Shown in pieces: positions 24,666 to 40,316 of a DNA stretch of 64,000 bases. The stretch is from Desulforamulus aquiferis (GTDB taxonomy: Bacteria; Bacillota; Desulfotomaculia; Desulfotomaculales; Desulfotomaculaceae). The notes below the pieces were generated by a model. The model was given only the letters and a program-made list of their open reading frames with translations, was not told the DNA's origin and searched no databases. Each line of letters opens with the position of its first letter. Positions within the stretch are counted from its first letter, which is position 1. The stretch is from assembly GCA_004143605.1 (NCBI GenBank), contig AWVY01000018.1, forward strand, positions 1 to 64,000, given 5' to 3'. Made by a program: the position numbers and the translations under genes.

Positions 24666-25644
24666 ATGCTGCTGGAAGACCAATTCAGTTATTTGGGACA
24701 TGTGAAGCAGTTAGGCAAAACGGGTAAATGCTCTGGTCTTTATAGGTATAAGGTTTTCGGACTTCATGTTATTTCAGAAATTTTGTTGCCTGAACTATTG
24801 GTTACAACACCTAGAGATGATATACCTGAAGTTTGTATTAGTATTGGAAATGTTCCGGTTGGTATTGCCAATGCTGTTAAAAAAATCGGTAGTTATCACC
24901 TGGCATCTAATCAATTTCTCTTTGAAGTCACTGGAGTTGGCCGCTTTTACGTACCAACGGTAATTCTATACTTATTGAACCTTCAGAAAAGGCTGAAGAA
25001 CACTTGATCCGCCTTTTTCTGCTTGGTACCGCCTTTGGCGGGCTCCTTATACAACGGGGAATCCTTCCCATTCATGGAAGTGCTGTGGTTATAGACGGAT
25101 ACAGCGTACTTTTTGCCGGGGTAACGGGGGCTGGAAAATCAACGTTGTTAGCTGCCTTCAGGAAACAGGGCTATTCTTTTTTAACTGACGATGTGGCGGC
25201 CTTAACTATGGATCGAAATGGCATAGTATGGGTACATCCAAGTTATCCTCAACAGAAGCTATGGCGAGATAGTGCGGAAATAACCGGCGTCAATACATCT
25301 ACCCTAACGCCCTTTTACATTGGTTCTAATAATGAGAAATTTGCAGTGCCGATTAATTCAGGATTTTGTGAATCAGCAATGCCCTTGGCTGCTGTATACG
25401 AACTAATTTGGGGAAAATGTGAAGCTGTAGCCATCACGCCCCTATCCAATATAGAAAAGATGACAGTATTAATGGACCAAACCTATCGCCATTGGCTGGT
25501 TGATGGACTAGGACAAAAGATTAGTCATTTTAAACAATGTGCGCTGTGTCCAGGCAGATTACTATTTCCCGCTTAACCAAACCCATTGGTCTGCTAACCT
25601 TGGCGGAACAGGTAGATCTCGTACAAAGAGATTTAGCAGGTTGA
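24666..25644 (+). CDS. HPr-kinase-like lasso precursor kinase (PadeK-type, frameshifted)
   Basis: About 325 residues after joining frames near 24958 and 25535. The P-loop GVTGAGKSTLLAAF, preceded by the LPIHGSAVVIDG strand and followed by FLTDDVAAL, is the HPr kinase/phosphorylase fold as found in lasso clusters. The C-terminus restored by the second shift reads ITISRLTKPIGLLTLAEQV. The HPr-binding helix of true HprK is not evident. In paeninodin clusters the homologous enzyme phosphorylates the C-terminal Ser of the precursor; both precursors here end in Ser. First gene of the operon, 45 bases before B1/B2. Confidence 0.8.
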
Positions 25645-25689: not shown

Positions 25690-26424
25690 ATGAGCTCTAA
25701 ACATGAAATTCGTCTGTATACTATCGTTTGGCATGCAGAAGGAATAGTTGCTGCCGATATGGACGGTGAAAAAGTCATGCTGAATATTGAAAAAGGCAAA
25801 TATTATGGATTAGATGGTATTGGCAGTCGCATCTGGGAACTTATTGAGGAGCCACATAGCATTCAGGAAGTAGTAACTGCATTGCTAAAGGAATATGACG
25901 TGGAAGAAAGTATCTGCCAGCATGATGTGCTAATGTACATAAAAAACTACATGAGCAAGGGCTTGTTGCAGTTGCTTAGATTGTTGAAAAACTTCATTAT
26001 TATGTCCTGGCGGGAGCAACGATTATTCTTGGAAGCATATTGCCTAACAGGGATAGTACGTTTGGCTATAATTTTATTTCCTTTTCGCCGGATCGCTCCT
26101 TTTCTTGGTAAATATATGGCAGAATCGTCAATGCTGGAAGATTCTGTAAAGCTAGCAATAGCCAGACGAATTGGTCAGCTAGTTACAAAAGCAAGCCGCT
26201 TCACCCCGTGGGAAAGTAAGTGTCTGGTCCAAGCAATGGTATGCAAAATAATGCTGCGCCGACGAAAAATTAACAGTACTCTTTATATGGGAGTTGGCAG
26301 AGATAAGATAAAAGGACTTGTGGCCCATGCTTGGTTAAGGTGTGGTAAAACTATAATATCAGGTGCTCAGGGAATTAAAAACTTTACTACGGTTGGAAAA
26401 TTTGCCGATTTAGATGGGGGGTAG
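25690..26424 (+). CDS. Fused lasso leader-binding B1 (PqqD-like) and B2 protease
   Basis: 244-residue single frame. Residues 1-93 are the PqqD-like RiPP recognition element that binds the leader (MLNIEKGKYYGLDGIGSRIWELI, then KEYDVEESICQHDV). Residues ~95-244 are the transglutaminase-like leader peptidase: SWREQRLFLEAYCL, FTPWESKCLVQAMVCKIML with the catalytic Cys, and GLVAHAWLRCG with the His, ending FTTVGKFADLDGG. B1 and B2 are usually separate genes in Firmicutes. The fusion could be real, or a missing base near 25965 may have removed a B1 stop overlapping a TTG start for B2. Confidence 0.85.
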   Translation: MSSKHEIRLYTIVWHAEGIVAADMDGEKVMLNIEKGKYYGLDGIGSRIWELIEEPHSIQEVVTALLKEYDVEESICQHDVLMYIKNYMSKGLLQLLRLLKNFIIMSWREQRLFLEAYCLTGIVRLAIILFPFRRIAPFLGKYMAESSMLEDSVKLAIARRIGQLVTKASRFTPWESKCLVQAMVCKIMLRRRKINSTLYMGVGRDKIKGLVAHAWLRCGKTIISGAQGIKNFTTVGKFADLDGG

Positions 26425-26449
26425 AAATCAAAGGAAAGGGGGTGGAGTG

Positions 26450-26604
26450 ATGAAAAACAATGGATTGAGCCAAAAATTGTAGAGATTGCGACAAGAAAGA
26501 CAGGAACTCAAGTAAAAAAAGGTGGTTCAGGTGATATGGATTTTAATGGTGTGGTACAAGGCGTCTTGGATCCTTGGGAAGATTGCTGCAATGTCTGTAG
26601 CTAG
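26450..26604 (+). CDS. Lasso-type precursor peptide 1 (one base missing near start)
   Basis: Very short gene behind GGGGGTGGAG. As given, ATG 26450 stops after ten codons. Restoring one A to the five-A run directly after the ATG opens a 51-residue peptide to TAG 26604. The leader runs MKKQWIEPKIVEIATRKT, with the W-x-x-P element read by B1 and a Thr at P+10, the place of the conserved leader Thr(-2). The remaining ~32 residues are Gly/Asp-rich and end in DCCNVCS: three Cys and a terminal Ser. It lies between B1/B2 and cyclase 1. The same leader pattern in precursor 2 supports the reading. Confidence 0.72.
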
Positions 26605-26784: not shown

Positions 26785-28765
26785 ATGAGTGCAATTTGCG
26801 GTGTTTTGTATTTTAATGGTAGACATGTTACACAGGAAACTAGTGCCAACATGATGCGGGAGTTTGAAATCTATCATGCAGACGCTGTGGGAACTTGTCA
26901 GAAGGAACAGATTTTTTTGGCTTGCCACGCACAACATATTACACCTGAGTCCGCCCAAGAAATCCTACCATACCATGATGTTCTTAGCGGTTTAATCATT
27001 ACTGCAGACGCCATTGTTGACAACAGGGCCGAGCTAATCCACAAGCTTGGTATCGAACATTCCTTCAGGAAGGGCATGCCAGACAGTAAATTAATTTTAT
27101 TAGCTTATTTAAAATGGGGTCATGAATGCCCAAAACACCTGGTGGGTGATTTTTCATTCGCCATTTGGGACGAAAGAAAACAGGAATTATTCTGTGCTGT
27201 GGACCATACTGGAACAAGGACCTTTTACTATTTTAGGTCTTCTACCCTATTTGCCTTTTCAACTTTAATTAAGCCCTTATTTTCATTAAAAGAAATACCC
27301 AGAAAACATAATGAGCTTTGGCTTGCAGATTTTTTAGCAATGCCATGTCAAAATCACCAATTAGACCCTGAATTAACTCCGTACCAAAATATTAGATTAT
27401 TGCCTGCAGGTCATAGCCTAATAGTAAATCCCTCTAGGTCAACAAAAAAGATTTATTGGCAGGTGGAGAAACAACAGGAATTAAAATTGAAGTCAAACTA
27501 CGAATATGAAGAGGCATTCAGGGAGGTCCTAGATGAAGCAGTAAAATGTCGTTTACGAAGCATTCGCCCAATAGGAGTAATGTTGAGTGGAGGTCTGGAT
27601 TCAACTTCAATTGCTTGTTTAGCCGCACGTGAATTAGGTTTGAAAGGACAACGGCTCCAGGCATTCAGTGCGGTACCAATGGCAAGCTATCGGGACTGGT
27701 TGCCTGCATGCATAGTCGCCGATGAAACACCATTTATTGAAGCCGTGCGGGAACATGCAGGAAATATTGATGTTACCTACTGTAGTTCAGAAGGCAAGCA
27801 TTCATTAAGCGATACTGACCGCTTACTTGCCAGCCTAGAGCAGCCTTATAAAATCTTCGAAAACTTATTTTGGATTGAGAGTATATTTACTGAGGCTCAA
27901 GGACGTAATGTTGGGGTTTTATTAAATGGGGCCGCCGGTAACGTGACTATTTCTTGGGGGCGTTTTGAACCCTATATGATAACCTTGCTCCGAACCGGAC
28001 AGTTGTACCGATTAATTCGTGAATGTTGGCTTGTTGCCAAACGTTTCAAACGTCCCCATAGAGTATTATTGAAAATGTTATGGACTCTGTTGCCTTATAA
28101 TATAAAAAATATGCTAAGTAAATTCAGTTACCATAAGTCTCAAAGGGAACTCCAGGCTTTGTCTCTGATTAACCCGGTTTTCGCCAGCCAAAGCTCAGTT
28201 GATAAACGGTTTCATCAATTTGGGTATGATAAGTTATTTGATAAATCCACAGACAGTTTGGAAGAGCGTAAAATAGACTTAATCCTGCCGTATTCAGTCA
28301 TGTTGGTGTCATTTCTACCAAACAGTCATTGACTTACCAAATGGCACGTCGTGACCCAACAGCCGATAAGCGTGTAATTGAGTTCTGTTTTAGTGTTCCA
28401 GACAACCAATATGTGCAGGGAGGCAGGGGGCGTTCTCTCCTTCGGCGTGCCATGCTGGAATTTTGCCAGAAAAGGTGCTTATAAATGAAAGGAAACGTGG
28501 CAGGCAAAGTGCTGATTGGGCTCAGAGATTACAACCATTTTGGCCGGAATTGGTTGCAGAGGTGCGGAAAATCGGCGAACTAGCTACTGAACGCAGCTTT
28601 CTTAACATATCCAAAATCCAAGATACTATTAATATTGTCAGAACAATACCTGACGATGCGGCAGATGATCCCAATCTCCGTATGTTAATTCGCAGCCTGA
28701 TTTTTAGCCGATTTTTAAGATATGAAGAGGTTATTAGTAACACTAATACGTCCGGGCAAGCCTGA
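26785..28765 (+). CDS. Lasso cyclase 1 (asparagine-synthetase-like, frameshifted)
   Basis: About 660 residues after correction near 28283 and 28456. N-terminal glutaminase-like domain: begins MSAICGVLYFNG, so the nucleophilic Cys2 of asparagine synthetase is missing and no glutamine hydrolysis is expected. ATP-pyrophosphatase domain: IGVMLSGGLDSTSIACLAA, LNGAAGN, then RRDPTADKRVIEF and GRQSADWAQRLQP. Lasso cyclases of this type adenylate an Asp/Glu side chain and form the macrolactam. About 60% similar by eye to cyclase 2. The last codons (after SNTN) come from the repeat at 28749, so the natural C-terminus may be altered. Confidence 0.85.
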
Positions 28766-28875: not shown

Positions 28876-30657
28876 ATGAATATATTGTTGCTTTATATCA
28901 GGGAGTTTTATAACCTAGCTCCATTAAAATTTGTAACTAATATAATTTTAATGGTTATAATCGGCATGCTGGAAGGTTTAGGCATACTAATGATTATACC
29001 ACTATTGATTGTCGCTGGTATAATTCCTGGTATTAACACAAACAATGGGTTAACTGTCATACTTAATCATTGCTTTCAAATCATTGGTTTGCAAGTAAGC
29101 CTGCCTAATTTACTTATTTTATATATAGGTTTTATTTTTGGTCAAAGCTGGCTGCAGCGTCGCCAATCAATACTTAATCTTGATATTCTTCAGTCTTTTG
29201 CTATTTTTTTATCTACAAGGTTAATTAGGCTGGTTGCATCCGCCGAGTGGCAGCTTATCTTATCAAAACCAAATTCTTATATAACAAATGTCTTTATAAC
29301 TGAATTAGAACGTGTTTATGCAGGAATAAAGTTTTTTTACAAATGATTAGCATATCCCTGATCACTTTAATTCAAATTGTTATAGCCTTTTTTGTAGCAC
29401 CTAGCTTAACCTGTTTAGTGCTGACCGGCGGTGTGATCTTGTTTATATTTTTACAAACCTTCGCCAAACAAACCCGAAGTGTGGGGCAGGAGATATCAAG
29501 TTTAAATCGTGATTTGTTATTTAACCTAACTGAGCATTTGAACGGGATGAAGGAAATCAAAAGTTATGGCGTTGAAGCGGCTCAGATTAGTAATTTCGTC
29601 AAAATACGTAAAGAAATGAAGAAAAACTCAAATAGATTTAATCAAATACAAGTTAAGACCAACATGATTTATAAAATTGGTTCGGCTATTTTTATAAGCC
29701 TATGTTTATTTAGCGCCATAGAGATATTTACTTTAAATCCCCAAGATTTTATAGTTATTGCAGTTATTTCGGCCCGCCTCTGGCCAAGATTATCTTCCCT
29801 GCAAATAGGGTTGCAAAATATAAGTACCATGTTACCTGCTTTCCAGGTTCTTAGGGAATTAGAAAACCAATGTCTTGCGTCCCAAGAAGTCCTTGAAGCT
29901 GATACTCCCACAATAATTAAACTGGAACAAGGGATTGAATTCCGTGGTGTATCTTTTTATTACGAAAACTCCCGTACAAATTACGCTTTAAAAAAGATTG
30001 ACTTTTTTCTAACTGCTGGCACAACCACTGCCATAGTTGGCTCTTCGGGTGCCGGTAAAAGTACTTTAGTTGATTTGTTAATCGGTTTGTTACAGCCTAA
30101 AGAAGGAGAAATCTATATCGATGATCAACCACTATCAATAAATAAGCGCAAATGGAGAAATACAATAGGATATGTACCACAAGATGCTTTTTTATTTAAT
30201 TCCAGCATCAGAGAGAACCTACAATGGTTTTGTCCTGATAGCTCAGAGGAAATGATCTGGGAAGCCTTAAAGCTAGCCTCAGTTGATACCTTTGTAAGTG
30301 GACTGCCGGATGGTCTTGACACAGTGTGGGAGATCGAGGAGTACGACTATCTGGCGGCGAGAGACAGCGCATTGTGCTGGCAAGGGCATTATTGACGAGA
30401 CCATCAGTCTTATCTTGGATGAAGCCACAAGCTCACTAGATTCGGAAAATGAAAAACGCATTCAACATGCCATTGAAAATCTACAAGGTAGGTTAACCAT
30501 CGTAATTATTGCCCACCGCATTTCCACTATAAGGAACGCCGACAATATTATTGTAATAGAATCTGGGCAAATTGTGGAGAAAGGTACTTACAATTCTTTA
30601 ATGAAAAACAAGAATGGTCGGTTCAGTACTTTATCCTGCTTATGTAACAATAATTAG
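28876..30657 (+). CDS. Lasso peptide ABC exporter, membrane and ATPase domains (frameshifted)
   Basis: About 594 residues after joining 28876-29346, 29343-30395 and 30298-30657 (breaks near 29335, at a T run, and near 30335). Six-helix membrane domain ([20 protein letters not shown] and later segments), then an ABC ATPase: [20 protein letters not shown], Walker [17 protein letters not shown]-loop [17 protein letters not shown], Walker [16 protein letters not shown], and the switch His in [12 protein letters not shown]. The signature motif lies in the damaged segment. This is the D-type exporter giving export and self-immunity in lasso clusters. Confidence 0.85.
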
Positions 30658-30676: not shown

Positions 30677-31000
30677 ATGGTGTCTAATAAAATTTTTACA
30701 TTTGTTATGATATCCATGTGTATCTCAACTATATCATTAACAATAACTAAAAATAAGTTATTCTCCCCCCTTCGTTCCTTAGTAAGGAAACGTTTTAATT
30801 GGTTAGGGACATTGCTAAGCTGCCCTTATTGTATAAGCCATTGGCTTGCATTTTTTCTCGTTATTTTATTCTATCATTATACTCCCGTGATAATGGTTAC
30901 AGATTTAGTTTTTCTGGATATTATCATAACAATATTTGCAACAATTTCTCTGGCTACGATTATTACAGGTGTTATGTACTTTATAATAAAAAAATTCTAA
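30677..31000 (+). CDS. DUF1360-like membrane protein
   Basis: 107 residues, intact, AAGGGAG upstream of ATG 30677. Three hydrophobic segments: residues 4-22, 50-70 and 80-104. The loop LLSCPYCISHWLAFF has the CPxC...W signature of the DUF1360 family, small membrane proteins of unknown function found in spore-formers. Its place between the exporter and precursor 2 suggests a role in export, immunity or thiol chemistry of the product; that is inference. Confidence 0.7.
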   Translation: MVSNKIFTFVMISMCISTISLTITKNKLFSPLRSLVRKRFNWLGTLLSCPYCISHWLAFFLVILFYHYTPVIMVTDLVFLDIIITIFATISLATIITGVMYFIIKKF

Positions 31001-31102: not shown

Positions 31103-31294
31103 ATGGAAAAAGTGGCAAAAAAGTTGCATTGGGTTGAACCTCAAATATTAGAAATAAAAATTCTTATGACTAAAATATCTACTGCTAAGTTAGAGTTTTT
31201 TTCTACCGATTCTTATGCACACGCTACTGATACATCCCTTATGTCATTAGGAGAGCTAAAACATTTGGACTATACAAATGCACTTTTATCATAA
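31103..31294 (+). CDS. Lasso-type precursor peptide 2
   Basis: 63 residues, intact. ATG 31103 is chosen because AAAGGAGG lies eight bases upstream; a longer frame from 31046 would include the ribosome site. The leader KKLHWVEPQILEIKILMT matches precursor 1 in W-[IV]-E-P-[KQ]-I-[VL]-E-I and in Thr at P+10. The following ~39 residues are Ser/Thr/Leu-rich with Glu/Asp at several places, no Cys, and end in ...TNALLS, again a terminal Ser. It sits 23 bases before cyclase 2. No database name known to me. Confidence 0.72.
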   Translation: MEKVAKKLHWVEPQILEIKILMTKISTAKLEFFSTDSYAHATDTSLMSLGELKHLDYTNALLS

Positions 31295-31317: not shown

Positions 31318-33257
31318 ATGAATGCAATATGTGGTATCTACATCGCGATGGCAAACCGATTCTGACAGCAACAAGTAATGAAATGATGAAAGCATTAGGA
31401 ATCTATCGGTCTGACATTTCAGGGTTATGGAGAAAAGAAAATATTTTTTAGGTTGTCATACTCAATACATAACACCGGAATCAGTGGGAGAAGCACTTCC
31501 CCATTATGATCATATTTCGGATTAACAATTACTGCCAGCGCAATAATTGATAATCGTCAAGATTTATGCGATAGATTACTGATTAATGGCCCTTATAGAA
31601 GTTACATCCCAGACAGTCTTCTCATTTTGAGAGCCTATATAAAATGGGGATATGATTGTTCAAAGCATCTTGTTGGGGATTATTCCTTTGTTATATGGGA
31701 TAAAAAGCGACAAGAATTATTTTGTTCAGTTGATCATACAGGAACAAATACCTTTTATTATTTCTGCTCACCTAATATCTTCGCATTTTCAACCTTGCTT
31801 AAACCCCTTTTTGTCTTACGGGAAATTACAAAAGAATTTAATGACACCTGGATTGCCGATTTCCTCGCCACCCCATCAGTAATGCATCAGCTAGACCCTG
31901 AACTAACTGTATATAAGGACATTTATCTTTTACCCTCGGGAACTAACCTGATTGTCCGTCCTGACAGTACTACAAAGAGGGTATATTGGAAAGTTGAACA
32001 ACAATCTAAACTATTCTTGCAGACTGACAATGATTATGTGGAAGCCTTTAGAGAGATCTTTTGTGAAGCGGTTCGTTGCCGATTGCGTAGTTCCCGGCCA
32101 GTTGGAGTGATGATGAGCGGCGGGTTAGACTCCACCTCTGTTGCCTGTATGGCAGCACAATTATTAGCCAAGAGTGGTCTAGAACTTCAGGCTTATTCTG
32201 CACTACCAATCCAGGAATATCGTGATAATTTACCCCTTGGTAGCCTGGCTAACGAGAAGCCATACATAGAAGCAGTCAGGGAGCATATGCCAAATATTGT
32301 TGTAAAGTATATTCGCTCAGAAGACAGGCACTCTCTAACTAATACCGACGTACTGCTTGCAATGCTTGAACAACCTTATAAAATTTTTGAGAACTTGTTT
32401 TGGCTTGACAATATTGTATCAATTGCCAAAACAAATAATATAGGTGTTTTATTAAGTGGAACATCCGGTAATTATACAATCTCATGGGGTTATTCTTTGA
32501 TTTACCTTATAACACTTCTTAGTTCCGGTCATTTTAATAGATTTTTTGATGAAATTCGTTTTACGGTTAGTAGATATAAACATCCCCTTAAATCATCTCT
32601 TGTCTTATTAAGACTCGCTCTACTCTATGTTGTAAAGAATAACTTTTCAAAAAATATTAACTATTTCTTTAGCAGACCTCATAAAACATCACCTGTAAAT
32701 CCTACCTTTGCTAAATGCACCAACGTCTTTGAGCGACTACGCAATTATGATGCAATATCCCTAAATAACCTGTCTTCCTTGGAAATACGCAAAAAACAAC
32801 TTAATCCCAGTTATTTCACCCACCTTGGAGTAATTACTACTAAACAGTCCCTGGCTTATGGATTGGCCTTACGTGATCCAACCATGGATAAGCGAGTAAT
32901 TGAATTCTGCCTGAGTTTACCTGATGATCAATGTGTACGAAATGGAAAAGAAAGGTTTTTAATTCGGCGGGCAATGAAAGGTCACTTGCCTAATAAAGTC
33001 CTTCTAAATGAAACTGTTCGAGGTAAGCAGAGTGCTGATTGGGTACAACGAATACAGCCCTCCTGGACAACACTATTTACTGAGCTTGGCAACATCGGAG
33101 CAAAAGAAGCTGAGCAAAAGTATCTTGATGTTAACAAAATCCAAAAAAAATTAAAAAATATAACGTATTGCATGACAATACGTTATATGACCCAAATCTT
33201 CAAATGTTGATCCGCAGCCTTATTTTCTGCCGGTTTTTAAATATTGTTAAAGGGTAG
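31318..33257 (+). CDS. Lasso cyclase 2 (asparagine-synthetase-like, frameshifted)
   Basis: About 645 residues after correction. ATG 31318 opens MNAICGIY, like cyclase 1, then breaks near 31342, 31448 and 31521. The long frame from 31627 carries WGYDCSKHLVGDYSFVIWD, VGVMMSGGLDSTSVACMAA, LSGTSGNYTISWG, LRDPTMDKRVIEF and GKQSADWVQRIQP. A last break near 33165 restores DPNLQMLIRSLIF and the stop at 33257. The Cys2 nucleophile is absent. Paralogue of cyclase 1; probably dedicated to precursor 2, which lies just upstream. Confidence 0.85.
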
Positions 33258-33305: not shown

Positions 33306-34489
33306 TCAGGAAGTCTTGTTATGTTGCCACATATCCCGAATACACCTCATAAACCAACTAAAGGGACGAATAAAATAATAAACCATATATAGTTTATTGG
33401 GCAGTGAGATAATTCTCATATCGTCCCTTAAAGGCTGGAAAAGGTGAAATATATAATTTATTTTATTCTTCCAACCAATCTGAAACTGTAACTCATAATA
33501 CCTCCTCCGATAAAGCCAATCACGCTTAGTATATTGAGCCTCTAGATCTGTGTTTGACAAAAAAGGAACAGTCAATCGAACCAAATTCCAGGCATATCTA
33601 TCTTTTGCCAAAGAAGGTTCAATATTAGTTGGAACTGGTATTGATAATAGCATATTAGTTAGGATCAATGTCTGATGTAAAAGAGGCAGTATGCCCATAT
33701 TTTTAGCTAATGATACTACCTTTTCCCAGTCAATGCCTCCTTTTTGTACAAACTTTGCTATATCTACCAGCCATCGAATACGAAACCAAGCGTGACCGGC
33801 TCCATGAAAAATTAAATACAATAACCATTCCTCATTTGAAAAAACCGCCACTGGGTATCCCGCTACAACAATTCTATTAATCTTCGTCTTGTGGGGGAAT
33901 TTCCAGTCCTATATTACCTAGTTTCCAATGTAGTTCTAGATGTATATTTTGATCCCTTTGCCAATATTTAAAGTGATGATTGTATTTCAAATATCTTTGC
34001 AATTGACCGGCAACTAAAGGGTAATCTGGTTCAATTCTTTTATAACCTTCCCTTTCAATTATGTTAATTGCTTTTTCTAAATGGTTAGGTGGGAAGAAAA
34101 TATCAATATCTTTGGATGGCCTAACAGCTATATCTCCATATAACGACATGCCAATGGTAACCCCTTTAAGATAAAGGCACTTACCCCCTGGCTTTCAAGT
34201 TGTTTTAGAATCCTAATTGTTTCTCCCGTCATACTTATAGTTCGCATGGCATTGCTTTTATATTTTTGCTTTAGTAGCCTAAGAACATGTTCTGGCACAG
34301 CTTCTTTGTTTAAACTTTTTAGACTTCTATATATTATAGGATAAACACGATGGTGGACTGAAAGATCTATCAGCAGATCCCAGTTAATATCCCATTGCAA
34401 TAAATGTTCAGCTTTATCCAGTCTCTCGCTTACACATGCAAAAATAAGCCAAAGCTCAAGAGAAATCTCTTCAAAGAGATTTTATGCAT
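33306..34489 (-). CDS. Nucleotidyltransferase-fold protein (PadeN-like, frameshifted)
   Basis: About 394 residues joining 34489-34440, 34128-34400, 33877-34149 and 33306-33851. The core has ILKGLPLACRLYGDIAVRPSKDIDIFFP, a minimal nucleotidyltransferase motif with D-x-D, then HLELHWKLGN and a helical C-terminal half (WLLYLIFHGAGHAWFRIRWLVDIAKF), as in the uncharacterised nucleotidyltransferase family PF14907. Homologues accompany kinases in paeninodin-like lasso clusters. It is convergent to cyclase 2, 48 bases apart. Start ATG 34489 follows GGGGTGATAAA. Confidence 0.75.
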
Positions 34490-36121: not shown

Positions 36122-36679
36122 TCAAACTCTGCCAGTCAATACAGTTTTTAGCTCTTTGATACTTGGCAATATAAAATTTGCTCTAGTCCCTCTAATATCG
36201 CCAATGTTATTTCCACTGCGAACCAGTACAGTCGTTCCGACCCCCGCATTGAGACCTGCCTCAATGTCCGACTCTTTATCCCCAACCATAATTGAATCGC
36301 CTAAATTTACTCCAAACTCAGACGAAGCTTTAATAAGCATACCCGGACCAGGTTTCCTACAGAAACTATCCTTCTTATAATTATTTATTCCAAAATGTGG
36401 ATGGAAAGGCGAATAATAAACCTTTGTAATATTAATACCTTCCTCTTTAAACTGCTGAAGCATCCAGTTACTAAGGATGAGAAAATCCTTGACTGTATAA
36501 TATCCTCTGCCAATGCCAGACTGGTTTGTAACTATAATCAACAAATACCCTATACTTTCAAAATATCTCAATATGTCAAATACACCATCAATAAATTCAA
36601 ATTCTGATATTTTAAATAGGTAATTCTTTTCTTTATTAATTACACCATCTCTGTCTAGAAACAATGCTTTATTCTTCAT
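36122..36679 (-). CDS. gmhB: D,D-heptose 1,7-bisphosphate phosphatase
   Basis: 185-residue HAD-IIIA phosphatase, intact. Motif I is FLDRDGVIN, motif [17 protein letters not shown], and motif [19 protein letters not shown]; zinc ligands sit in SPFHPHFG...CRKP. It removes the 7-phosphate of D-glycero-D-manno-heptose-1,7-bisphosphate. Its start overlaps the hddC stop by four bases. Part of the gene set gmhA-hddC-gmhB-hddA. Confidence 0.88.
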
Positions 36680-37367
36680 ATCAGGTTTACCATCTCGCTT
36701 TGAGCCCTAAGGTAATCACTAGGAATCCCAATATCAATAAAATAACTTTCTGATTTATATGCGGCAATTACAAGCCGCCCTAATTGTTGCGTTAGGAAAT
36801 CAGTTTCAAAGGAGAATTTATTCGGTAAAACTATATCGTTAAATAAGTGGCTTTTTGCTACATATACTCCACCATTAACACACCCTTTGATTGTAAACTT
36901 CTTTTCCTCAAATCCAACGACCCTTTCCCCGGTTGTTTTGACATTTCCGTAACGTTCAAAATTGATCATGGGTTTAATGACAAAGTGAGATCAGCATCTA
37001 TTGCCAGATGTTTAGAGTAGATATGATTTAGGTTAATATCAAAAAAGGAATCTCCGTTTAAAATAAAAACATCTTTTTCACTAACATTCTCCAGTGCCTT
37101 TTTTATCGCTCCACCTGTACCCAAAGGTTCATATTCAATAGAGTAATCTATAACAATTCCACCATATCTATAACCATAGTAATCCATTATTTTTTCATGC
37201 ATGTATCCCGTTGCTAAGATAACTTTTTTTATGTTATACTTGCTTAAATATTCTAAGAGATAAGTAAGAAATGGATACCCTCCTATCGCTGCCATTGGTT
37301 TTGGAACTTCTGAAACAATGGTTTTTAGTCTTGTGCCTAAACCACCAACAAGGACTATAGCTTCCAT
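36676..37367 (-). CDS. hddC: Heptose-1-phosphate guanylyltransferase-like (one frameshift)
   Basis: About 230 residues. Nucleotidyltransferase with [40 protein letters not shown] and [13 protein letters not shown]-terminal half [15 protein letters not shown] and [14 protein letters not shown]. The frame breaks at 36965. ATG 37367 with AAGGG upstream is preferred over a TTG two codons earlier. In context it activates D-glycero-alpha-D-manno-heptose 1-phosphate with GTP. Confidence 0.82.
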
Positions 37368-37369
37368 AA

Positions 37370-37954
37370 TCAAAATCCCTTACCGAATAGAGCTTCTTCA
37401 ACAACTGAGCATATAATGTGCCCTAATAAAATATGAACTTCTTGAATTCTAGGTGTTTCACTTGAGGGTACTCTTATAATGTAATCACAGTTACCAAACA
37501 TTTTTCCTCCTGTAAGTCCGGTTAAAACAATACTTGTAATCTCTTTTTTTCTACATTCATCAAGGGCCTTTAAAATGTTTTTAGAGTTGCCTGAAGTAGA
37601 TATGCCAATAAATATGTCCCCTTTTACCCCATTAGCTTGAATTTGCCGAGCAAACAAGTTATCGTAGCCGTAGTCATTGCCAATGGCTGTCAATATAGAC
37701 GTATCAGTGGTGAGGGCAATTGCCGGTAGACCTGGCCGGTCAAAATAAAAGCGGCTTACTAACTCTCCTGCAATATGCTGGGCGTCTGCTGCACTGCCAC
37801 CATTTCCTGCAATAATCACTTTATTTCCTATGCGATAAGCATCAATTATTCTTTTTGCTACTGTTTTAGTGATATGAATTATGCCATCGTCTTCAATAAT
37901 CTGATGCTTAAGACTAAACGATTTTTCGACTTGCTGTCGTATAAACCGCTCCAT
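37370..37954 (-). CDS. gmhA: Sedoheptulose-7-phosphate isomerase
   Basis: 194-residue SIS-domain protein, intact. GNGGSAADAQHIAGELVSRF at residues 50-70 and IGISTSGNSKNILKAL with EVHILLGHIICSVVE at the end identify GmhA. It makes D-glycero-D-manno-heptose 7-phosphate, the first step of the heptose pathway. Two bases separate its stop from the hddC start. Confidence 0.92.
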   Translation of the reverse strand: MERFIRQQVEKSFSLKHQIIEDDGIIHITKTVAKRIIDAYRIGNKVIIAGNGGSAADAQHIAGELVSRFYFDRPGLPAIALTTDTSILTAIGNDYGYDNLFARQIQANGVKGDIFIGISTSGNSKNILKALDECRKKEITSIVLTGLTGGKMFGNCDYIIRVPSSETPRIQEVHILLGHIICSVVEEALFGKGF

Positions 37955-37981
37955 CCCTTACACCGTCCTTTCCATCAACAT

Positions 37982-39013
37982 CTAGGGTCCATCCTGTGTT
38001 CCGTTTTTGGTGAAATGAAAATTCATAATAAAACCATCTAGCATGCCTAGTTCTTTTAATAGCCGCATCCTATGGACGGGGTTAACCATAAACATCATAA
38101 ACCCTCCACCACCCGCACCTGATACTTTACCAGCATAAGCACCTGCTTGTATTGCAGTATGATATATGGAATCTAATTTATTGTTTGTGATAACCGAGGC
38201 CATCTTCTTTTTAGCCTCCCAAGATTTTCCCAGGAACTCGGCAAATTTTAAGATATCTCCCTTTAACAGCGCTTCTTTCATTATCAAAGCATCTTCCTTT
38301 ATCTCATGCATAGCTGTAATTGATTTATGCTCCTTTCCCATTACGTTTTTTATTTGTTCATCAATTATCTTGGCTGAATCACGTGATGTACCTGTATAAA
38401 AAAGAACAAGTGAGTTCTCCAACTCGTTAATAATCCAGTTCTTAACTCGTAAAGGGTTGACAATCACACGTTCACCCTCATAAAATTCTATAAAATTAAA
38501 CCCTCCAAAGGTAGCTGCGTACTGATCCTGTCGTCCACCACTTAACCCCACATCTAATCGTTCTATTTTATATGCTAACTGGGAAATATCATAATCTCCC
38601 AGTGAAAAATGAAGCCATTCGTCAAAGGCTTTGATCATGGTTACAACCATTGTGGATGATGAACCAAGACCAGAACCTGCTGGTGCATCGGAATATGTAG
38701 TCATCATAAAGGATAATGGCCGACCTGCATTATATTGTTTAACAACACGGTTATATACTCCCTTATGCAAATCCATATTACCATCTAATTCTAGGTATTC
38801 AATGCTATCGCATTCCAAATATTCATTTCTGTCAGCAGCAAAAAATATAATTTTGTTATTATTAGTTATTTCAATAGTACAGTAAGCGTACATATCAATA
38901 GTTGCATTAAGAACATAACCACCAAAGTCATCACAATAAGGTGATACATCTGTACCGCCACCAGCCAGGCCAAGTCGTAGAGGTGCCTTTGCACGCACTA
39001 TTTGTTTAATCAC
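37982..39013 (-). CDS. hddA: D-glycero-alpha-D-manno-heptose-7-phosphate 1-kinase
   Basis: GHMP-family kinase of about 343 residues. [21 protein letters not shown] at the N-terminus, the ATP loop [14 protein letters not shown] and the C-terminal [16 protein letters not shown] are clear. The GTG at 39013 with AAAGGATGG upstream is preferred to the longer frame to 39076. The alpha-specific HddA type points to GDP-D-alpha-D-heptose, used in S-layer or capsule glycans, rather than the ADP-beta-heptose of lipopolysaccharide. Confidence 0.88.
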
Positions 39014-39039
39014 TTTTACCATCCTTTCACGGGTAATAA

Positions 39040-40316
39040 TTAAATCTCCAATAATTGATAAAATTGTCCTTTGCATAAATCAAAATTATGGTAACTATTT
39101 ACATAATCCCGTGCATTTTTAGATATATCTTGGCATATCTGTTCATTTTGAAATACTAACCTTACATATTTTAGAAACTCATCATCATTATTTGCGACAA
39201 ATATGTGTTTATTATTAGTCACCTTTAATCCTTCAACCCCTATGGCTGTTGTAATTACAGGTAACCCAAATCCCATGGCATCTATTATTTTGGTTTTAAT
39301 ACCTGTGCCAAAATATATAGGAGCAACAAATGCCTTTGTAGTATTTAATAAAGCTGAAAAGTCATCTAAATAACCAGTTAATATTATGTTACGGTCCCAT
39401 TTCTGTTGATGCTTTTTTATTGCATCTGTTGCTTTATCCCCAATAATATAAAGTATAATATCCGGATATTCGCTGACCAGCCTAGGAAAAATTCTTTCTA
39501 AAAACCTTAACAATCCCATTTCATTGTGAGGTATGTTTAATTTCCCCATAAACGCTAGGGAGTAGGGAGTTTTTAGTGCTTCAATATCTATGACAGGCAT
39601 TATATCTAGGGCTGGATATATACTATATATGTTTGATTTTTTGAGACTTGTTTTAGTTTTTCACGCTCAAAGGGCGATACTAGGAGTACTTTTTCAAAAT
39701 TTTTGACTGATGTCTTTTCCCTATGTTTTAATAATGCTGATTCATATTTCAATATTATATTTCTGATTAATTTATTTGCTATAACATCAATAATCCTTGG
39801 GATTTTATTTGAAAATTCCCCCAACACATTTACTTCATTGTGTTCTAATAAATGTCTATATCTTAAGGACAACAGATCATCCATATCCAGTATTATTAAT
39901 TGTTCCAACTTATTAGATGCATCTTCAAAGTATTGTGCAGTACGCAACATATCACAAAATATAATATTAGGTCTTATATTACTAACATCTTGCCACAGCT
40001 TATTTTTTATTGAGATGTTAAAATAGAAACATTCTTGTATTGATTTCTTTTTAATTAATGTATACTTTATTATATTAGTTGCACTATTAATAATATTAGG
40101 TAAAGCTATAATTTTAATCTCTTTAATCTTAGAGTACCTATTCAACATATATTCTATTTGCTGTTCAAACTTTGAAGGGTCTTTTTCAAAACAATACAGG
40201 TATATTTCAATATCTTGTCTTAAGGATAAAAACTCAAGGTATTGCATTAGTGTTTTATGCCTACCGTTTTTTACAGGATAAGGCATACAAGAAGTTAAAA
40301 ATAGTATTTTCTTCAT
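39040..40316 (-). CDS. GT4 family glycosyltransferase (one frameshift)
   Basis: About 424 residues joined near 39603. N-terminal domain: [42 protein letters not shown]-terminal domain: [21 protein letters not shown], then [28 protein letters not shown]. The latter is the usual GT4 donor-binding stretch, as in STP1/WecH-like enzymes. Sugar specificity cannot be read. Lies between hddA and another GT4 gene. Confidence 0.78.

Follow-up and report, generated by a model that had tools for sequence, protein, structure and literature searches.

A paeninodin-like lasso peptide precursor of Desulforamulus aquiferis with a candidate ring acceptor out of register with the Thr(-2) rule

Gene content of the locus

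The window, i.e., the whole stretch of 64,000 nt of Desulforamulus aquiferis DNA that was analysed, harbors a lasso peptide cluster with two precursor genes and two cyclase genes:

24666–25644, + strand: HprK-like kinase K, broken into frames, with the His, Lys and Asp-Asp motifs present
25690–26424, + strand: B1 (PqqD/RRE) and B2 (transglutaminase-like leader peptidase) in one ORF (PF05402, PF13471, NF033536, NF033537)
26449–26604, + strand: precursor 1, in-frame start lost by a one-base offset in an A run
26785–28765, + strand: lasso cyclase C1, 2 frame breaks
28876–30657, + strand: MsbA-like ABC exporter D, 3 frame breaks
30677–31000, + strand: DUF1360 membrane protein (PF07098), present also in the clusters of Peptococcaceae bacterium BRH_c4b, G075 and G033 C80
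31090–31094, + strand: Shine-Dalgarno sequence GGAGG, read from the sequence
31103–31294, + strand: precursor 2, 63 aa plus stop, by ORF call and profile match
31318–33257, + strand: lasso cyclase C2 (NF033535, PF00733, PF13537), start and end read from the sequence
33306–34400, - strand: NTP_transf_5 (PsmN/LppN-type) gene in three frames (PF14907 on 33306–33851), with homologues in the clusters of relatives

Genes for B1, B2 and the macrolactam synthetase are all in the cluster, with cyclase C2 broken in this assembly: its frame shows several breaks near the start and one near the end, and the longest open part spans 31627–33210. Cyclases of the order were recognised by high NF033535 scores together with adjacency to a precursor; the curated cut-off of NF033535 was reached by neither window cyclase, nor by any intact cyclase in the order. 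In the cyclase tree the window lineage (its order plus Formimonas) was grouped with a support of 100/99. The placement of C1 and C2 within the lineage was not settled in this tree, and C2 was not assignable to one precursor type. The single B1-B2 ORF of the window, compared to separate overlapping genes in BRH_c4b, may be a true fusion or the result of an indel.

Precursor 1 (WIEPKIVEIATRKT) has its Thr at Pro+10. The region 26425–26604 contains no in-frame start, and a nearby ATG lies one base out of frame at the A run. By the Thr(-2) rule its nearest acidic residues stand at positions 10 and 12, off the rule. By inspection, polysaccharide genes come after the lasso locus, and genes resembling those for GDP-D-glycero-D-manno-heptose (isomerase, kinase, nucleotidyltransferase, phosphatase) adjoin the cluster on the minus strand (36122–39076); they are a possible sugar donor source for the NTP_transf_5 protein.

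Precursor 2 and the quality of the assembly

The 63-codon ORF of precursor 2 encodes MEKVAKKLHWVEPQILEIKILMTKISTAKLEFFSTDSYAHATDTSLMSLGELKHLDYTNALLS. Its ATG at 31103 lies 8 nt downstream of the Shine-Dalgarno sequence, and its stop codon (31292–31294) is separated by 23 nt from the ATG of cyclase C2. Against all 1,751 ORFs read from the window in six frames we ran a precursor profile of 11 relatives, with precursor 2 left out of the build. Precursor 2 ranked first (E 1e-8) and precursor 1 second (E 5e-6), while all remaining ORFs had E values of at least 0.4. The core of precursor 2 alone scored 8.2 bits against the core profile of the relatives, compared to 7.1 bits for the top of 2,000 shuffles, and this match was carried by F-S-T-D-S-Y-A-H-A-T. 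Because of the top profile rank and a core score exceeding every shuffle, we concluded that precursor 2 is a genuine gene of the lasso precursor family and not a chance ORF. A reading made earlier from the sequence only had named lack of conservation of this frame in relatives as grounds for rejecting the gene; the leader, the F-S-T-D-x-Y block and the final Ser were found conserved in frame.

The genome of the window is 72% complete, and many frames of the window are broken. Non-cluster coding regions had 17 frame breaks in 19.2 kb (0.89 per kb) when compared to proteins of the same genus, and the cluster had 7 in 5.9 kb (1.19 per kb) when compared to the BRH_c4b proteins. In the window alone the pcrA gene is fragmented; it keeps an open frame of 725–758 aa in 8/8 other genomes of the genus. 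The pseudogene reading of the cluster was dropped as the main reading, since pcrA, ligA, gatB, hisD and a leuA-like gene are also broken. As housekeeping genes break at a comparable rate, the frame breaks, about one per kb throughout the window, point to assembly-wide sequencing error and not to decay of the cluster. At about one indel per kb there is some risk of a base error within the precursor 2 ORF as well, although a 9-nt insertion would be an atypical kind of error. This risk is limited by the conservation of the leader, the block and the final Ser in a single frame. The sequence-only reading had overlooked the assembly-wide nature of the broken frames, as well as Asp36 and a C-terminal Ser that fits the kinase.

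Leader, core and ring acceptor

The following features were assigned within precursor 2:

31130–31171, + strand: recognition segment of the leader, W10–T23, from the WxxP motif through the conserved Thr; W, P and T invariant in the alignment
31184–31210, + strand: segment proposed to form the 9-residue ring, Ala28–Asp36 (AKLEFFSTD), with predicted cut, from the core profile test and from K29 and D36, invariant in 11 rows
31193–31195, + strand: Glu31, formerly proposed as ring acceptor
31250–31252, + strand: Gly50, formerly proposed as alternative core start
31289–31291, + strand: C-terminal Ser63, expected phosphorylation site by comparison with Ser-ending precursors

A WxxP leader with Thr at W+13 was present in 25/25 precursors tabulated, precursor 2 included, and W10, P13, E17, I18, T23, K29 and D36 were invariant in the 11-precursor alignment. 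The lasso-type leader that had been read from the sequence was borne out by this conservation in relatives, as was its likeness to precursor 1, with Thr23 at Pro13+10. WxxP is nearly invariant in the paeninodin-like leaders of Bacillota (PMC13381572). The final Ser was found in all 25 tabulated precursors and in 11/11 further precursors from Bacillota, and the cluster pairs it with an HprK-like kinase gene. PadeK and its relatives phosphorylate the C-terminal Ser on the precursor, and PsmN adds a hexose onto the phospho-Ser (PMC9266682). Ser63 of precursor 2 is likely phosphorylated, given the final Ser of all these precursors, a kinase with its motifs and the precedent of PadeK.

Paeninodin itself follows the Thr(-2) cut rule. 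By this rule, which was established from earlier lasso precursors (PMC10368454), the core of precursor 2 comprises Ile25–Ser63, in agreement with the earlier description of a long core (39 residues) lacking Gly or Ala at its Thr-defined start. The only acidic residue at positions 7–9 is Glu31 at position 7, and the conserved Asp36 stands at position 12, which is 13 residues past Thr23 compared to the usual 10. The core-profile match and its invariance mark Asp36 as the candidate acceptor of the family. In passages of a review, lasso rings are named with 7–9 residues (PMC13352647). Since Asp36 at position 12 exceeds such a ring, the leader would probably be cut about 3 residues later than Thr(-2) predicts, or else the ring would be unusually large. 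A cut before Ala28 would give a 9-residue ring; a cut before Lys29 is another possibility, placing Thr27 at -2 and giving a ring of 8 residues. Several points count against the assignment: the Thr(-2) rule is established and only Glu31 fits under it, nearly all precursors tabulated from other families of Bacillota outside Clostridium follow it with Asp at 9 (see below), none of the relatives has Ala at the position aligned with Ala28, where N, D, T or S is found, and the alignment is gapped around residues 24–31.

The ring formerly proposed, Ile25–Glu31 with 7 residues, would follow the known cut rule (PMC10368454), and 7-residue rings are known from the xanthomonins, as cited in the review (PMC13352647). 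Against it, Glu31 is conserved in no relative, being unique to precursor 2 in the alignment, and an acidic residue falls on positions 7–9 in 35% of shuffled cores. Moreover, the rule is impossible for five cyclase-adjoining precursors of the lineage, so that we regard a strict Thr(-2) cut with closure at Glu31 as unlikely. The other proposed start, Gly50, would leave a 49-residue leader and a 14-residue core, Gly50–Ser63, with a 7-residue ring closed at Asp56. Gly is the favoured first core residue, and the second precursor of BRH_c4b (A2), which has the same gene position, offers a Gly start with Asp at 8, followed by a 7-residue tail whose last residue is Ser. Gly50-Glu51-Leu52, however, aligns with the tail motif Gly-Asp/Glu-Ile/Leu of the relatives, most of which lack an acidic residue at 7–9 after the aligned Gly, and the conserved F-S-T-D-x-Y block would fall into the leader. 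A late Gly start with Asp or Glu at 7–9 arose by chance in 16% of the shuffles, and such a late core is likewise improbable. With shuffle rates of 35% and 16%, both earlier ring readings build on weak coincidences.

We also compared the spacing between Thr and acidic residues in other precursors. Clostridium aside, Asp was at exactly position 9 by Thr(-2) in 11/12 precursors tabulated from other families of Bacillota. Within the window lineage 16 precursors adjoin a cyclase; in ten of these an acidic residue stands at 8 or 9, five have none at 7–9 (precursor 1 of the window, BRH_c4b A2, G075, G018 and one of G032), and precursor 2 of the window has just the unconserved Glu31. In Clostridium, 4/4 tabulated precursors, each beside a cyclase, have Asp at 10. 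The only acidic core residue is at 11 in G018 and at 10 in the Clostridium manihotivorum precursors, and as this single residue lies outside 7–9, these precursors require a later cut or a ring of more than 9 residues. BRH_c4b A2, which occupies the corresponding position in an identical gene order, lacks an acidic residue at 7–9 by Thr(-2) and reads G-K-I-S-T-G-N-D followed by A-F, so that this choice is forced in at least one relative.

A cyclase tolerating larger rings, with precursor 2 cut strictly at Thr(-2) and closed as a 12-residue Ile25–Asp36 ring, would accommodate the candidate acceptors at 10–12 in Clostridium, G018, G075 and G032, and also the cores of G018 and C. manihotivorum with their one acidic residue. 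On the other hand, the ring sizes named in these review passages end at 9 residues (PMC13352647), and a Gly start shifted one residue downstream accounts for the spacing in Clostridium; the large ring therefore seems quite improbable. For the off-rule precursors a later cut would be the simpler reading. With it, Gly would be the first residue of the Clostridium cores and Asp their ninth, BRH_c4b A2 would read GKISTGND-AFGLGHS, and precursor 2 would read AKLEFFSTD-SYAH... with 36 residues. Three tandem precursors of C. manihotivorum (L113, 9041–9600) have Asp at 10 and Gly at Thr+3, giving a 9-residue ring, which suggests Thr at -3. We tentatively propose, as a possibility short of even odds, that lasso precursors of the Desulfotomaculum relatives and Clostridium depart from the Thr(-2) rule, and that the distance of the cut after Thr varies and is dictated by the core or the ring segment, often of the form X-Lys with Asp at 8/9. 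Our literature search retrieved no published account of Thr(-3) or of variable leader-core spacing. Viral contigs yielded no relative, and the full precursor profile, run over an even sample of the phylum, gave weak matches only.

In the relative G033 C80 (L093, 2625–6961) the kinase, B1, precursor, exporter, B2 and DUF1360 genes were present and no cyclase was found within the 10 kb read; the precursor core NYQAHGLNGPHLPNLPHGSNGPQGPHTLQVIS (after Thr-Glu) contains no Asp or Glu. Ring acceptor and cyclase are jointly absent there, and the product is perhaps a linear phosphopeptide. That precursor 2 stays uncyclized, as a dead gene or as an LPP-like linear phosphopeptide, would fit the broken cyclase C2 and this cyclase-less relative but is very unlikely, as housekeeping genes are similarly broken (see above), precursor 2 does not have the LPP leader motif, and no SpI peptidase was seen among the large ORFs of the cluster region.

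Proposed maturation and known systems

With its long core and its candidate acceptor out of register, precursor 2 belongs to the paeninodin-like lasso precursors. The gene, its membership in the cluster and the conservation of the leader, the Asp36 block and the final Ser are directly supported. Our best reading, to which we assign a probability of about 0.58, is that of a paeninodin-like substrate with the leader cut past Thr(-2), best at Ala28, and a ring closed at Asp36. For the enzymatic steps, the cut site and the threading of the product we infer the following. The B1 domain would bind the WVEPQI leader, and the HprK-like kinase would phosphorylate Ser63; the NTP_transf_5 protein may put a sugar on the product. 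B2 would cleave off the leader, and the adjacent cyclase would link the new N-terminus with the side chain of Asp36. A cut at Ala28 would result in a 36-residue core with the 9-residue ring Ala28–Asp36 and a loop and tail of 27 residues, and the exporter would secrete the finished peptide.

The unusual point of precursor 2 is that its likeliest ring-closing residue lies further from the cutting signal than the textbook rule permits. Genome-mining tools and readers locate lasso cores via the Thr(-2) rule. If the spacing is variable in this lineage, its precursors would be systematically missed or misread, and whether Thr or the core positions the cut could be tested with precursor pairs from one cluster. 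The class itself is already known, and precursor 2 is a mildly new variant of it.

The window shares WxxP, Thr at W+13 and the final Ser with the phosphorylated lasso peptides paeninodin and pseudomycoidin of Bacillota, as well as genes for an HprK-like kinase, B1, B2, a cyclase, an MsbA-like exporter and NTP_transf (PMC9266682, PMC13381572). While Bacilli-type relatives mostly have Asp at 9 by Thr(-2) and tabulated cores of 22–25 residues, precursor 2 has its conserved Asp at 12 and a core of 36–39 residues. The gene order of BRH_c4b (L095), K B1 B2 A1 C1 D DUF1360 A2 C2, is that of the window. BRH_c4b A2 has a short core and a long leader-core spacer (GKISTGNDAFGLGHS), whereas precursor 2 has a long tail.

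With LPP clusters the window has in common an HprK-like kinase, an RRE, an NTP transferase, an MsbA-like exporter and the setting in a polysaccharide locus; this setting and the accessory genes are known for both paeninodin-like and LPP clusters (PMC13381572). LPP leaders carry the motif YxxPxVLxHQxIxFETxxS and are processed by an SpI peptidase (PMC13381572), and LPP clusters have no cyclase, in contrast to WxxP, B2 and the cyclases of the window. The motif is absent from precursor 2, and an SpI-like peptidase was not seen among the large ORFs of 24.6–34.4 kb, which are accounted for by lasso genes, cyclases included. The cluster fits the paeninodin side rather than the LPP side, since WxxP is near-invariant in the former and YxxP together with an SpI-type peptidase characterizes the latter.

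Like precursor 2, pandonodin is long-tailed; with 33 residues in total it has the record longest tail according to the review (PMC13352647). A phosphorylated lasso peptide of 36 residues would exceed this and extend the known size range. Pandonodin is proteobacterial and has a disulfide in its tail, while the core from the window has no Cys and a predicted length of 36–39 residues.
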